Shown in pieces: positions 30,155 through 34,736 of a DNA stretch of 64,000 nt. This DNA is from Paenarthrobacter aurescens (lineage in GTDB: Bacteria > Actinomycetota > Actinomycetes > Actinomycetales > Micrococcaceae): contig NZ_CP157456.1 in assembly GCF_041549525.1 (NCBI RefSeq), positions 3,162,001 to 3,226,000 of the forward strand, in the 5' to 3' direction. The translations under genes were made by a program, and so were the position numbers. Under the pieces are notes generated by a model. The model saw only the letters and a list, made by a program, of their open reading frames with translations. It made no database searches and was not told the origin of the DNA. Each line of letters begins with the position of its first letter. Positions within the stretch are counted from its first letter, which is position 1.

Positions 30155-32377
30155 TTACAGGAAGGCGTTCATGGTGTTCCAGCCGACGCCAACCTGCTCG
30201 GAGTACAGCCACCAGCTGTAGCCGTTGCCGGCATACAGGACCAGTTCGCCGCTGCTGGTGCGCCCAAGAACGTCCACTTTGCCGTCGCCGTCAAAGTCGC
30301 CTGGCGCTTCAATGGCGTTGAAGATGTTCCAACCGGCACCCACCTGGCTGGCCGCAAGCCAGCCACCGGATCCGTTGCCCGGGTAGAGCAGCAGGGCTCC
30401 AGATCCGTTGCGGGCAATGACGTCAGCTTTGCCGTCGCCGTTGAAGTCTCCAACGCCGTCGATAGCTGTCATCACGTTCCAGCCGGCACCGATCTGGCGG
30501 GGCTGCAGCCAACCGCCGGTGCCGTTGCCGGGGTAAAGCCACAGAACGCCGTTGCCGTCACGGCCAATGACATCAGCAGTGGCATCGCCGTTGAAATCAC
30601 CTGTGGACTTGATGGAGGTCATCACGTTCCAGCCGGCACCGATCTGGGTGCGTCCCAACAAGCCACCCCAGCCGTTGCCTGGGTACAGCCACAAAACGCC
30701 GTTGCCATCGCGGGCAATAACGTCCGCATAGCCGTCTCCGTTGAAGTCGCCGGGGGCTTCGACGGCGGTCATCATGTTCCAGCCGACGCCGATTTGGGTG
30801 CGGCCGCCCCTCCAGTTGCCGTAGCCGGTGCCCTTGTAGAGCCACAAAGCGCCATTGGAATCGCGGGCAACCACATCGCTGGTGCCATCACCATTGAAAT
30901 CGGTGAGCTTTTGGTGCGGCGCGGGAAGTGGAGCGGCACCACCGAACTTCTTCAGCGCCGTGGTGGCGTCAACCAAACCCGCACCGCAGCCGGCGGCGCA
31001 ACCGGCCGGAAGTGGCCGGGCCGATTCCTTGAGCTGCTGCTCCAGCAACTGGGGAGTCAGCGTGTTGCCTTCAGCGGCGAAGAGGAGAGCCGCGATTCCT
31101 GCCACATGGGGAGAAGCCATGGAGGTGCCCTGCATAAACGCGAACGCGGGCTCTTCCTGGGTGGTGGTTCCGTAGTTCAACGTGGACAAGATGCCATGGG
31201 TGACGTCATTTGTCATGTCGCCGCCGGGCGCTGTTATGTCGATGGCGGTTCCGTAGTTGGAGTACGGTGCCCGCGCACCGGCCTTGGTGCTTGCCCCCAC
31301 GTTGATGACGTTCTCGCAGTTGCCGGGGCTGACGTCCGATGCAGGGCGGTTGGAGTTACCGGCGGAGACCACTACTGCCGCGCCTGCGTTGTAGGCGAAG
31401 TTGATGGCGTTTTGGTACGTGGCGGAGCAGGTTGCCACGCCGCCGAGGCTGACGTTGATCACCTTTGCCGGGTTGGGGTTGACGGGAAGGTCGGTCACCA
31501 CGCCGCCCGCGGCCCACACGATTGAGTCAGCGATGTCCGAGGTGTACCCGCCACAAACGCCCAACGCCCGCACCGGGAGAATCTTGGACTTCGGCGCAAC
31601 ACCGCTGATGCCAATGTTGTTGTTTCCCACTGCGGCTACGATTCCCGCAACGTGGGTTCCGTGCCAGGAGGAACTTTCGGCGGGGCTGCCGGCCTCGCAT
31701 TCTTCGGCAGGGACCCAGTCGCCCTGGTCAGTGGGGTCCGGATCGCGGCCGGTTCCGTCCCGCGCGTCAGCTGCGCTGGAGATCATGTCATATCCAGGCA
31801 ACACATTCGCGCTGAGCTCGGGGTGGTTGGTGATGCCCGTGTCAACAACGGCCACCACCACGCCTTCGCCCTGGTTGTAGTTCCAGGCGCTGGGGGTGCG
31901 GACGCCGGAGAAGTTATCCCACAGGTTCCACTGCTCCGTGTAGCCGTAGTCTTTCGAATGAGCTGTGGGGTGCATGATGGCGTCGGGCTCAGCGTAGGCA
32001 ACTGCGGGGTCAGCGCGAAGCGTCTCCACAAAAAGCTTGGCTTCGGAGGGCGTGAGTGCTTCGTCGAGCTTGATGACGTGGCCGCCCGTGGCGTTCACGC
32101 TAGCGCTTTCTGCCGAGACTCCGAGCTTGGTTGCTGCCTGGTCTGCCGCATTCTCTGCCTTCACCGCGGCCGCCTGTGCAGCGTTGTCGCGGATACCAAC
32201 AATGAACTGGTCCGTAGCCGTCTCGGGTGTGGGCTGCAGCGCCTGCGGGGTGCTGGGCACGATGTCGTTGAGATCGGCGGCGGCTGCAGGCTGAACAGCC
32301 AGACCCCCGCTGATAAGAAGTGTGGTTACTGCTATGCCAATGGAACTCAGCGGGCGCAGTCGGAGGTTTTTCACCAT
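30155..32377 (-). CDS. secreted S8 (subtilisin-like) serine protease with FG-GAP-type repeats
   Basis: A 740-residue exported protease. A signal peptide (about 1-33) and an inhibitor-like propeptide (about 50-135) come first. The catalytic domain has Asp179 (VVDTG), His239 (SSWHGTHVAG), oxyanion Asn341 (SAGNSN) and Ser419 (GTSMASPHVAG). The C-terminal 250 residues hold about five repeats built on DFNGDGxxDVxxRD-type metal-binding motifs separated by LWLYPGNG strands, a beta-propeller of the FG-GAP/VCBS kind. Such domains usually bind ligands or calcium. The gene is monocistronic. Confidence 0.93.
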   Translation of the reverse strand: MVKNLRLRPLSSIGIAVTTLLISGGLAVQPAAAADLNDIVPSTPQALQPTPETATDQFIVGIRDNAAQAAAVKAENAADQAATKLGVSAESASVNATGGHVIKLDEALTPSEAKLFVETLRADPAVAYAEPDAIMHPTAHSKDYGYTEQWNLWDNFSGVRTPSAWNYNQGEGVVVAVVDTGITNHPELSANVLPGYDMISSAADARDGTGRDPDPTDQGDWVPAEECEAGSPAESSSWHGTHVAGIVAAVGNNNIGISGVAPKSKILPVRALGVCGGYTSDIADSIVWAAGGVVTDLPVNPNPAKVINVSLGGVATCSATYQNAINFAYNAGAAVVVSAGNSNRPASDVSPGNCENVINVGASTKAGARAPYSNYGTAIDITAPGGDMTNDVTHGILSTLNYGTTTQEEPAFAFMQGTSMASPHVAGIAALLFAAEGNTLTPQLLEQQLKESARPLPAGCAAGCGAGLVDATTALKKFGGAAPLPAPHQKLTDFNGDGTSDVVARDSNGALWLYKGTGYGNWRGGRTQIGVGWNMMTAVEAPGDFNGDGYADVIARDGNGVLWLYPGNGWGGLLGRTQIGAGWNVMTSIKSTGDFNGDATADVIGRDGNGVLWLYPGNGTGGWLQPRQIGAGWNVMTAIDGVGDFNGDGKADVIARNGSGALLLYPGNGSGGWLAASQVGAGWNIFNAIEAPGDFDGDGKVDVLGRTSSGELVLYAGNGYSWWLYSEQVGVGWNTMNAFL

Positions 32378-32544
32378 ATGCGGTCATCCTAGGGAAAGCG
32401 CGAGCAGCCTCAGTACGGCGGATCGCGGGCAACTGGAGACCACCAGCTGACCCCCAGGAAATTGTAAGCTGACTCTCGCCTGGAACGGGTACACAACGTG
32501 TTTGTGACATTTTGGACCGGCTGAACGCGGGGAGTGTCGATGCG

Positions 32545-32757
32545 TCAGACGCGGCCTTTGATGATCGCGGCGATCAGTTCTTTGCTGCAGCCCACGGCAG
32601 CAGCCAAGGCACCATAGGACCACCGTTGGGGATCTTCCTGGCGGGCACGGCGTATAAAAGCATCCCGCTGCTGCCGATGCCTTTCCGCGAGCGCAAGGGC
32701 ATCGGCAGCGCGGCGGTGATGCTCGCGAGCCTGTTGAATGCTTGAGTCAGATGACAC
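32545..32757 (-). CDS. 70-residue helix-turn-helix-like protein overlapping the TROVE gene
   Basis: A small charged protein. The first half is a long basic helix (REHHRRAADALALAERHRQQ, about 11-30). The second half reads WSYGALAAAVGCSKELIAA, which fits a helix-turn-helix. Its ATG lies upstream of the TROVE stop, an 11-bp overlap, so the two are translationally coupled. Functionally related roles are therefore likely: an operon regulator or an RNA-binding partner are both possible. No family is recognised. Confidence 0.75.
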   Translation of the reverse strand: MSSDSSIQQAREHHRRAADALALAERHRQQRDAFIRRARQEDPQRWSYGALAAAVGCSKELIAAIIKGRV

Positions 32758-34375
32758 GGGCCGAAAAGTCGTTCAACAAAGTGGGCAATGATGCGTCGAA
32801 ACCAGCAATGTCCAGCATGCCCGGGTCAGCAGGATCGGCAATGCTGAAGTCCGTGGACGTCAGTCCAACCACAGCCAGCCGGGCATCTATTCCTGACCAA
32901 TCCCGGTACCTGCGCAAGGCCTCATGCGGGTGAATGCGGCCTGCCCAGGTCTCGTTGTCGGTGTAGATGACGAATGTGTCCACCTTTACCTTGTTTGCCG
33001 TAGCCCACAACATCGGCAGCGCACAGTCCGTCCCGCCGAAAGGCAACCCGGAGATTGTGCCCAGCACGTCATCCAGCCTCTGCCGGGGTGAGATTGGCAA
33101 CGGCGAGATTCCGTCCATTGCCACCTTGCGCTGGAACAAACCCGTCCTGACGGCGCCCGAGTTGGACGTGAAGCCGAGGGTAGTGGTTTTGGGCTCCGTT
33201 GCAGCCGTGACCAAAGCCATCGCAGCCGAGACTTCCCGGGCCGTGATGGGCAAACCCGAAACGGGCATGGTCATGGAACCGGATACGTCCAGTGCGAGCA
33301 GAGTCCGCTTGTTGGCGGGCGTCACTGTTGCAAAGGAAGCGTAGAAGGCAGCATCCAGAGCATCCACCACCTGACTTACGGGTTCCCACGAGGACTTTCC
33401 GCGTGCGGAAGTGCCGGAAGCGTAGGTCCGCGCAGCCACCAGGACGTTGACCGGGTGCACCCTGGCCTTCTGCAGCCTGGTGCTGTCCGTGAGCTGGCGA
33501 GTGACGGCGTCGAGCGTTTCCGACATCGGCGCGAGCAGGCCAAGGCGCGTCAGCCGGGGCAGCTGCCGCATGAGTGCCGTCTGCGGGATGCCGTTGTCCA
33601 GGAGCTTTGACCAGACAGCGGGTTCCCGAAGGGCAGCATTGGGCAGCATTTCCCACGACAACTGCTGGTAGTCCTCCAAGAGGGCAACCCATTCAGCGGG
33701 CGTGGTGGCAGCCTGCACCTTCTCGAATCCCTCAATGAGCTGCGGCCCCTCAGTGCCGCGGCCACAGATCCAATCGAAGAGCTGCTTGCGCTTGGCTTCA
33801 GTTGTAGAGGGGTGTGCGAGGCGCAGAAGATCCTTGTGCGCCCAGCCGCCACGCTGCCTGTACTTCACAGCCTGGTAAGCCACCTCGTCCACTGGCTTGG
33901 AAACGTACCAGTCAGCAACTGCGCGGCGCAGACCACGGCCCCAACCACGGAACTGCTCAACGTAACCGGCAAAGAGGAACAAGTGCGTTCCGGTGCGCGC
34001 CACCTTGGGCAGCGCTGTCAGCGCGGCCTGCCGTCCGTCCAGGTCACCCAGAGCCGCGGCGGCGGCCAGGCAGAACAGCGCAGGGTTGTTCCGCGGCGCG
34101 CGCCCGGCATCGGAAATCGCGAGGACTTCGTTCACGAGTTCGGTGGTCCTTTCACGGGCCCACCCGAGTACGACGTCGGCGTTTTCCACCGTTAGCGCGT
34201 GTTCGGAGCTGTAGTACGTGCCGCCGTCGGTACCGAGCACCAGAAAGCGGCGCAGGCGTTCCAAAGGCGCCACAGTGAAGGCATGACCGCCAGCGTTGTT
34301 GGGAACCTGGCGGGAATCGGAGGGCTGCGACTGGGGCGTAGCCCGTAGGTTAATTGCGCTTAGTGCATCGGCCAC
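32747..34375 (-). CDS. TROVE domain protein (bacterial Ro60/Rsr homologue)
   Basis: RNA-binding ring protein of the Ro60 family, 543 residues. I chose GTG 34375, since GGGAGG lies 6 nt before it; the longer frame to 34435 would be read through the Y RNA. HEAT-like TROVE repeats fill residues 40-340, with the highly conserved YRQRGGWAHKDLLRLAHP (about 172-189). A von Willebrand A domain follows, with MIDAS motif DVSGSM (Asp363), a GGTD threonine and YTDNETW. Known homologues bind Y RNAs and misfolded RNA and work with exonucleases under stress. The gene is directly preceded by a Y-like RNA and overlaps a small HTH-like gene. Confidence 0.95.
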   Translation of the reverse strand: MADALSAINLRATPQSQPSDSRQVPNNAGGHAFTVAPLERLRRFLVLGTDGGTYYSSEHALTVENADVVLGWARERTTELVNEVLAISDAGRAPRNNPALFCLAAAAALGDLDGRQAALTALPKVARTGTHLFLFAGYVEQFRGWGRGLRRAVADWYVSKPVDEVAYQAVKYRQRGGWAHKDLLRLAHPSTTEAKRKQLFDWICGRGTEGPQLIEGFEKVQAATTPAEWVALLEDYQQLSWEMLPNAALREPAVWSKLLDNGIPQTALMRQLPRLTRLGLLAPMSETLDAVTRQLTDSTRLQKARVHPVNVLVAARTYASGTSARGKSSWEPVSQVVDALDAAFYASFATVTPANKRTLLALDVSGSMTMPVSGLPITAREVSAAMALVTAATEPKTTTLGFTSNSGAVRTGLFQRKVAMDGISPLPISPRQRLDDVLGTISGLPFGGTDCALPMLWATANKVKVDTFVIYTDNETWAGRIHPHEALRRYRDWSGIDARLAVVGLTSTDFSIADPADPGMLDIAGFDASLPTLLNDFSARVI

Positions 34376-34392
34376 AGTGGTCCTCCCATAAG

Positions 34393-34545
34393 TGAAAGTG
34401 GCGGCGGGCGTGTTTGTGAGGTCCGGGATGCCCAATGCTCTACCAATATGAGCTACCGGAGCGTACTCCGGGCGGGATTCGAACCCGCCACCTTTGGGTC
34501 CTTAACAGAGGTAACCGGATCTCTCCGGCCCGCCGCCACTTTCAG
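34393..34545 (-). ncRNA. Y RNA (YrlA type) with circularly permuted tRNA-like domain
   Basis: Basis is direct folding of the sequence. The ends pair as a 17-bp perfect stem (34544-34528 with 34409-34393; TGAAAGTGGCGGCGGGC). Above it lies every tRNA element except the anticodon loop, in permuted order. These are anticodon-stem half CCCAA, 5-nt variable loop AGGTG, T arm GCGGG-TTCGAAT-CCCGC, acceptor stem CCGGAG/CTCCGG closed by a TACG tetraloop, the linker TA (positions 8-9), D arm GCTC-ATATTGGTA-GAGC with GG and flanking A residues, one base, and TTGGG pairing with CCCAA. A GAGA-capped hairpin (CCGGA/TCCGG) sits near the base. YrlA RNAs next to Ro60 genes are known to mimic tRNAs. The 3' stem arm ends 6 nt before the TROVE ribosome-binding site. 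Confidence 0.9.
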
Positions 34546-34570
34546 TTTCGTGTGCGTGGACGTATTTGAT

Positions 34571-34657
34571 AACCGTCGGATCATCTCTTGCCGCCCCGAT
34601 AACTCAAAGCAGCAAGGGCAGGGATCGAACCTGCTTTATACCAAGTAACCGACGGTT
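34571..34657 (-). ncRNA. second, shorter Y-like RNA candidate
   Basis: A closing stem AACCGTCGG / CCGACGGTT (9 bp) surrounds a perfect T arm, GCAGG-TTCGATC-CCTGC. A hairpin follows with arms CTTGCTGC and GCGGCAAG (one G-U pair) and a 14-nt loop. The D arm is not clearly present, so tRNA mimicry is only partial. It lies 25 nt upstream of the first Y RNA on the same strand and may be transcribed with it. Confidence 0.6.
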
Positions 34658-34680
34658 TTCGGCCCACTCACTATTTAGGA

Positions 34681-34718
34681 GTGTAATGCATTACACCCCC
34701 TACGCGAAAGGGTGTAAT
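34681..34718. promoter_or_regulatory. operator-like palindromes upstream of the Y RNA/TROVE unit
   Basis: GTGTAATGCATTACAC (34681-34696) is a perfect 16-bp palindrome. A third half-site, GGTGTAAT, at 34711-34718 forms a second dyad with ATTACACC (stem of 9 bp). On the minus strand it is followed by TCCTAAATAGT, a possible -10 region. It may also end transcripts from the DUF4177 gene. The binding protein is not known. Confidence 0.55.
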
Positions 34719-34736
34719 CCGAAAGTTTGGAAGGGC

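Follow-up and report, generated by a model that had tools for sequence, protein, structure and literature searches.

Y1 is a predicted YrlA-type Y RNA of Paenarthrobacter aurescens that is encoded beside the gene of a Ro60 (Rsr) protein with TROVE and vWA domains, within a stretch of 64,000 nucleotides (nt) of contig NZ_CP157456.1 (positions 3,162,001 to 3,226,000), here called the window. The class to which Y1 belongs is already known. What is provisionally new is the unit around it, in which Y RNA and Ro60 are joined by a gene for a small helix-turn-helix (HTH)-like protein that, judged from sequence, is likely to switch the whole unit on and off. No description of this unit, with its linked HTH gene and predicted operator, was recognised in the literature searched, as judged from titles, abstracts and term counts. 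Bacterial Y RNAs as such are known, and the regulator, if real, would offer a direct way into the question of when they are produced and what purpose their tRNA mimicry serves. Y1 and its parts are the following.

34393..34544, minus strand: Y1, a full-type YrlA-type Y RNA (Rfam match, fold z, covariation, sequence), laid out as a 17-bp outer stem, an internal loop, a second stem and a permuted tRNA-like domain
34544-34528, minus strand: 5' arm of the 17-bp outer stem, TGAAAGTGGCGGCGGGC, pairing with 34409-34393
34409-34393, minus strand: 3' arm of the outer stem, GCCCGCCGCCACTTTCA, pairing perfect
34515..34523, minus strand: 5' strand of the second (Ro60-side) stem, GAGATCCGG, pairing with 34418-34426 with one mismatch
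34498-34494, minus strand: CCCAA, anticodon-stem-like (tRNA 39-43), pairing with TTGGG
34493-34489, minus strand: AGGTG, 5 nt between CCCAA and the T arm
34488-34472, minus strand: T arm GCGGG-TTCGAAT-CCCGC (Rfam match, covariation, sequence)
34471-34456, minus strand: acceptor-like stem CCGGAG-TACG-CTCCGG, sealed by TACG (covariation, sequence)
34455-34454, minus strand: TA linker between acceptor and D arm
34453-34437, minus strand: D arm GCTC-ATATTGGTA-GAGC, with GG within the loop (Rfam match, covariation, sequence)
34436, minus strand: single A after the D arm (sequence)
34435-34431, minus strand: TTGGG, anticodon-stem-like (tRNA 27-31), pairing with CCCAA

An earlier note on this DNA had listed the same tRNA elements in permuted order together with the perfect 17-bp stem, and all of them are present; the acceptor-like stem has 6 bp as against 7 in tRNA. 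The note gave no strand and placed the RNA at 34393..34545, of which the start holds and the end lies one base earlier, while every feature of Y1 is found on the minus strand. The fold of this strand has an energy of -75.5 kcal/mol (z -5.36, with 0 of 200 shuffles equally good), and the plus strand of the region reaches a lower energy of -85.6 (z -7.28), so that fold energy cannot assign the strand. Y1 is placed on the minus strand by the letters of its T and D loops, by an Rfam YrlA match on that strand only and by the orientation of the Ro60 gene; the plus strand was rejected as the RNA since, despite its better energy, no Y RNA match is found there.

The Rfam model of YrlA (RF02553) matches Y1 with 50.3 bits (E 3.9e-9) in the covariance-model search that the earlier note had proposed as a check. 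The match is local, covering model positions 23-85 of 114, and stays under the gathering score of 69 bits, for which reason Y1 is filed under the functional YrlA class and not under the curated Rfam set. No gathering-level Rfam family was found in the window or in the related loci L007, L033, L087 and L126; as all five sources tested fall below the curated score, such Y RNAs are easily missed by annotation.

Relatives were drawn from a scan of genome contigs for Ro60 loci, of which the best 80 of 117 were taken. Alignment A1 comprises 60 full-type RNAs from 48 sources, the one of the window included, all located beside Ro60 genes (from 74 full-type rows, 70 had ends that could be found, 64 scored at least 19 and 4 misassigned ones were dropped). 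Of the 29 pairs in its consensus, 21 show one or more two-sided changes; paired cells make up 97.2%, and covariation is 0.485 as against 0.168 in shuffled and at most 0.156 in slid alignments. Conservation and compensatory changes in relatives, whose absence the earlier note had named as grounds for giving up the RNA, are present, and its reading of a YrlA-type Y RNA is upheld by them, by the Rfam match and by Ro60 domains that exceed their Pfam cut-offs. Two points weigh against the class assignment, namely the score below the Rfam threshold and the pattern by which the RNAs were picked, which demanded T, acceptor and D pairing plus the outer stem, so that helices 1, 3, 4 and 5 are partly present by selection and part of the covariation count is inflated. 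The second stem and the anticodon-like stem provide a fairer test, as neither was demanded: the former (helix 2) is paired in 94.6% of cells with two-sided changes in 6 of 8 pairs, and the latter forms 4 or 5 of its 5 pairs in 33 of the 60 RNAs (mean 8.4 and maximum 17 in 2000 shuffles).

What is conserved on the Ro60 side is a module composed of the innermost stem pairs (GGGC/GCCC), an asymmetric internal loop and the covarying second stem, and the outer stem ranges from 7 to 20 bp among the 60 RNAs. The long stem, which had been proposed as the Ro60-side element, does exist at 17 bp, but the conserved module sits at its inner end instead. The completeness of the fold had been called striking; it turns out to be usual for the class, and the aligned relatives share it. 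The nearest relative, from Arthrobacter sp. MYb23 (L007), carries the identical 17 bp and differs at 8 positions across the 130-nt core. Some rows of A1 (e.g. L012, L022, L033 and L059) contain a CCA-CTnnnnA-TGG hairpin just 5' of the variable loop with a 7-nt anticodon-like loop (C32 U33, variable 34-36, mostly purine 37, A38), which a loose CACT test flags in 34 of the 60 full-type RNAs; two folds compete here, since the TGG is also able to pair with the 3' side. Nocardia Y RNAs (L008 2818-2946 and L012 2826-2955) have D arms (GGCCGAGTGGTAGAGGC and similar) that resemble those of class II (Leu/Ser) tRNAs, beside class I-like ones in the same array.

The covariance model R1, built from the 60 RNAs, scores Y1, which is a training member, at 110.9 bits. 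Outside the training set it matches all four phage loci (Cashline 113.3, BearBQ 97.5, Sparky 93.4 and Alice 90.0 bits) and 23 of 26 loci from the viral collection IMG/VR, the three misses being loci that end at or inside Ro60. ARAGORN finds no tRNA gene in the window. When the RNAs were rearranged to tRNA order and given a filler anticodon loop and a CCA end, it called Y1 a tRNA along with 61 of the 63 RNAs so treated; controls were called in 103 of 315 cases with swapped halves and in 4 of 63 in native order, a high rate that reflects the lenience of ARAGORN and makes the test support and not proof. The halves of Y1 could also be remnants of two adjacent tRNA genes that imitate a permuted tRNA, and weak R1 matches of about 36 bits (positions 24-102), found at one place in most of the 41 genomes of the genus, might be such neighbours. 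This origin has next to no probability given that ARAGORN sees no tRNA and that Y1 lies within a Ro60-specific module at the R1 score stated above; degenerate or tandem tRNA genes were ruled out on the ground that the acceptor strands pair with each other across the 4-nt loop and covary in relatives. These matches of about 36 bits, and a weak R1 match at G264:C1:2922163-2922394, are located apart from any Ro60 and are perhaps tRNA or other tRNA-like genes.

Y1 adjoins the Ro60 gene on one side and a second, shorter Y RNA, Y2, on the other.

32747..34375, minus strand: Ro60 (Rsr) gene, 542 aa, GTG start, with TROVE and vWA_Ro60 domains
34387-34382, minus strand: Shine-Dalgarno-like GGGAGG of Ro60
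34552..34671, minus strand: Y2, a tandem half-mimic Y RNA (R1 46.6 bits, E 3.4e-7, outside the training set; fold z -3.59)
34618-34634, minus strand: T arm of Y2
34587-34616, minus strand: hairpin of Y2

The Ro60 protein scores 152.1 bits for TROVE and 205.1 bits for vWA_Ro60, both above the Pfam cut-offs, and its closest solved relative is Rsr of Deinococcus radiodurans (2nvo, E 1.2e-116); with the NCBIfam equivalog model of Rsr (NF041674) it reaches 533.9 bits, under the cut-off of 900. A PNPase gene is present in the genome, above cut-off, and RtcB was not detected there. Y2 has the same Ro60-side module as Y1 and its position beside Ro60, and is counted as a Y RNA accordingly; no D arm follows its hairpin in the sequence, which places it outside YrlA, a class defined by the D-arm mimic. 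It represents a half type that combines a T arm with an acceptor-like hairpin and has no D arm; this type occurs besides the full type and a short type of some 64 nt. Others may already have seen the half and short forms. In A2, an alignment of 25 of the 29 listed half-type RNAs, the Ro60-side module is shared and 9 of 15 consensus pairs show two-sided changes.

R1 was run on the window, the 80 Ro60 loci and the four phage loci, and all matches at E <=0.01 were counted, training RNAs matching by construction. In 69 of the 80 loci the kilobase upstream of Ro60 contains matches, numbering one (16 loci), two (27), three (10) or four (16); five loci have them downstream only and six have none, one of which (L010) has just 107 nt of upstream sequence. 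In the myxobacterial loci L067, L070, L072 and L078 several T-arm patterns that resemble true tRNA genes are arrayed near Ro60, and the weak R1 matches from myxobacteria may represent genuine tRNAs. Among the 59 actinobacterial loci with an upstream match, the one closest to Ro60 stops 25-64 nt short of the start codon in 45 and 71-246 nt short of it in 14; Y1 itself ends 17 nt ahead of the GTG and 5 nt ahead of the Shine-Dalgarno-like sequence. This proximity favours a role in cis, in which Y1 would be part of the Ro60 mRNA leader and the binding of Ro60 to it would control Ro60 translation, any role in trans being secondary. Such a primary role in cis is quite improbable: each locus has several different Y RNAs, a simple leader switch needs no tRNA-like domain, and reviews (PMC4726728) treat the Y RNAs of bacteria as independent RNAs to which Rsr binds. 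The two roles of Y1 can coexist.

The elements that would make Y1, Y2 and Ro60 a regulated unit are located at the two ends of the cassette. Together with Y2 they had escaped the earlier note, whose account was to that extent incomplete.

34681..34696, minus strand: perfect palindrome GTGTAATGCATTACAC, the predicted operator, upstream of Y2 (unique; association of dyad and HTH gene)
34685-34680, minus strand: -10-like TACACT, overlapping the 3' half of the palindrome
32545..32757, minus strand: gene of a 70-residue HTH-like protein, the predicted autoregulator, with an 11-nt overlap with the end of Ro60 (stop codon included)

The palindrome occurs once in the 4.36 Mb genome, even when 2 mismatches are allowed. 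Its association with the HTH-like gene was examined in 85 loci (the 80 genomic loci, the four phage loci and the window), of which 31 carry the gene according to a profile search based on 24 of these proteins; in the window as in relatives, the gene overlaps Ro60. Of the 31 loci with the HTH gene, 30 have the dyad pattern TGTA-N6-TACA, which was fixed after the palindromes had been seen, in the 1150 nt that precede Ro60, the one miss being L010 with its 107 nt of upstream DNA. Among loci without the HTH gene only 3 of 54 have a dyad even with spacers of 0-10 allowed: in L037 and L048 the gene could not be seen, since the DNA ends right after Ro60, and the dyad of L089 has a spacer of 7. The same scan of Ro60 coding DNA gave 0 of 85. 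The Fisher p value for the association is 1.9e-18, a figure that ignores relatedness. Measured in 28 dyads of 27 loci, the distance from the dyad centre to the R1 match that follows is 14-61 nt. Of 42 dyads, 31 have TACA(C/G)T as their 3' half, which resembles a -10 hexamer, and this overlap marks the position where a repressor would sit. In L023 two separate TGTA-N6-TACA dyads are found 668 and 320 nt upstream of Ro60, each shortly before a Y RNA.

Relatedness was taken into account with a quick Ro60 tree of 102 rows, 98 of which were used (L010, L032, L037 and L048 were left out, and the spacer-7 dyad of L089 was coded absent). The HTH gene differs independently 10 times on this tree, and the dyad changed the same way in 5.8 of these on average and the opposite way in 0 (median p 0.031, range 0.016-0.125). 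In a first coding, five viral loci whose HTH gene lies further from Ro60 were either omitted or scored as lacking, and the outcome was 7.4 of 9 the same way, 0 opposite and a median p of 0.016. The IMG/VR loci provide a separate test. They number 26, all with the HTH protein, and Ro60 lies within the available DNA of 24; where the HTH gene lies at most 35 nt from Ro60 and more than 1100 nt of upstream DNA is available, the spacer-6 dyad is present in 12 of 15 loci, or in 9 of 12 once two duplicates and the Sparky-like, already counted L138 are removed, against a background of 0 in 72,323 nt. The remaining loci have upstream DNA that is too short or lack Ro60, apart from five with a more distant HTH gene that are given below. 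In L146 (2446-3183) an HTH relative has an upstream Y RNA match and a spacer-6 dyad, with no Ro60 in the locus DNA scanned.

AlphaFold2 models the 70-residue protein as one long helix and two short ones with a mean predicted local distance difference test score (pLDDT) of 95.5. A protein search recovered 90 relatives that are nameless or automatically named, and five phage records (four phages) carry the protein, in every case beside Ro60. In structure searches the matches were weak, some of them to DeoR-type DNA-binding domains and others to mitoribosome chains, and Foldseek and VIA-align found no clear relative. A scan of 396 genomes across the phylum was uninformative, the HTH profile being strong in one (that of the window) and weak (26-27 bits) in two, with TROVE in 11.

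Several observations weigh against a dedicated repressor acting at this palindrome. None of the Pfam, PHROG or NCBIfam families that name an HTH is over its cut-off for the 70-residue protein (HTH_31 17.3 of 27 bits and HTH_3 14.8 of 23 bits, below the curated thresholds); its best Pfam match is mitochondrial ribosomal L20, whose cut-off is passed by the relative in L042, and the mitoribosome chains fit the model about as well as the DNA-binding domains do. A consensus promoter scan found none where 0.6 were expected, and Ro60 contains a terminator-like site (33064-33048) at chance level. The dyad is situated between Y RNA and Ro60 in L015, and a Y RNA lies upstream of it in several loci (e.g. 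L014, L031, L041 and L054). Of the 15 testable viral loci, L129, L140 and L147 have the HTH gene and lack the dyad, as do, for the spacer-6 form, L142, L144, L145, L148 and L149, in which the gene is 73-737 nt from Ro60; the upper end of the p range from the tree belongs here too. The alternative is a standard YrlA Y RNA locus with no repressor of its own, where the small protein has RNA or ribosomes as its target and another factor binds the dyad, a co-inherited site. That arrangement is possible though unlikely, as HTH gene and dyad change together with no opposite case, the dyad overlaps the -10-like hexamer in most instances, the HTH gene overlaps Ro60 in the window and relatives alike, and the viral set agrees with the association.

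The best explanation, and a probable one, is that Y1 tethers Ro60 to an effector that recognises tRNA and that Y RNA, Ro60 and HTH protein form a self-regulating cassette. A single transcript would run from the palindrome just before Y2 through Y2, Y1, Ro60 and the small protein, and no terminator-like site lies between Y2 and Ro60. The Y RNAs would be excised from the leader of the Ro60 transcript and bound by Ro60 through GGGC/GCCC, the internal loop and the second stem, and the tRNA-like domain would serve as a tRNA-shaped handle shown to PNPase and tRNA-modifying enzymes. The small protein may occupy TGTA-N6-TACA over the -10 region and repress its own operon.

The cassette as a whole is rare among close relatives.

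32510..34735, minus strand: whole cassette, absent at the same place in the same-genus genome G273

Its flanks are 27 bp apart in G273 as against 2,226 bp in the window, and no Ro60 is found in G273 at E 1e-20. Among the genomes sampled, 1 of 245 in the family and 1 of 41 in the genus have Ro60, in both cases that of the window, and strong R1 matches are likewise found in 1 of the 41. Insertion is uncertain as the sole history of the cassette: G273 is cleanly without it, but G264 retains a 35-residue C-terminal piece of the HTH gene beside the upstream neighbour, which implies at least one loss. Truncated HTH relatives of which just the C-terminal part is left are P0085, P0086 and P0087 and that in L106 (3143-3257); one of them adjoins the upstream neighbour, where the cassette would sit. 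In the quick tree the Ro60 of the window groups with that of Arthrobacter sp. MYb23 (92%) and of an actinomycete metagenome-assembled genome, and the next level is a clade of 14 in which 9 are viral contigs. Ro60 relatives are present in 340 of 50,697 phage records, and the cassette is likely, from sequence comparison, to be phage-borne in origin; its GC content of 61.6% as against 60.2% for the window does not mark it as foreign by composition. It is rather unlikely that the cassette is a compact self-repressing mobile unit of phages and actinobacteria in which the full and half mimics of the array provide Ro60 with several interchangeable tRNA-shaped handles, with an assault on tRNA sensed or decoyed as a result, and the HTH protein sets the threshold for switching the cassette on. 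The downstream neighbour (30155-32377, minus strand) encodes a subtilase with FG-GAP repeats; such a gene also lies downstream of Ro60 in Arthrobacter sp. MYb23 and is kept in the cassette-less G273.

According to PMC4726728, bacterial Ro60 binds Y RNA at its lower stem, the Y RNA of D. radiodurans acts as a tether between Rsr and PNPase, and Rsr of Mycobacterium smegmatis binds Yrl RNA. YrlA is modified by DusA and TruB, with the tRNA-like domain as the effector side (PMC8394870), and the Salmonella unit is an operon for RNA repair controlled by RtcR (PMC7790460). YrlA of the Salmonella rsr-yrlBA-rtcBA operon (structure 6CU1) resembles Y1 in its permuted T, acceptor and D arms on a Ro60-binding stem and in its place beside Ro60, as described in the last two sources. 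Here, in contrast, the RNAs are located upstream of Ro60 and include a tandem half mimic, and Ro60 overlaps with an HTH-like gene; no RtcB was found in the genome and no RtcR-type control was seen. The RYPER complex of D. radiodurans (Rsr, Y RNA and PNPase) has its counterparts in the Ro60 relative and the PNPase gene of this genome, where a Y RNA would likewise serve as the tether. The Yrl RNA of M. smegmatis and the Y RNAs of mycobacteriophages and other actinophages share the arrangement of Ro60 with upstream tRNA-mimic RNAs; unlike the window, the eight mycobacterial chromosomal loci sampled (L019, L021, L026, L049, L052, L055, L059 and L084) lack HTH gene and dyad.

If the regulator-operator pair is real, it names a promoter, a protein and a site to test, and it implies that production of the Y RNAs and of Ro60 is controlled jointly, as a single unit. 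The arrays of full, half and short mimics form a natural series in which the parts of the tRNA shape that count can be sought.
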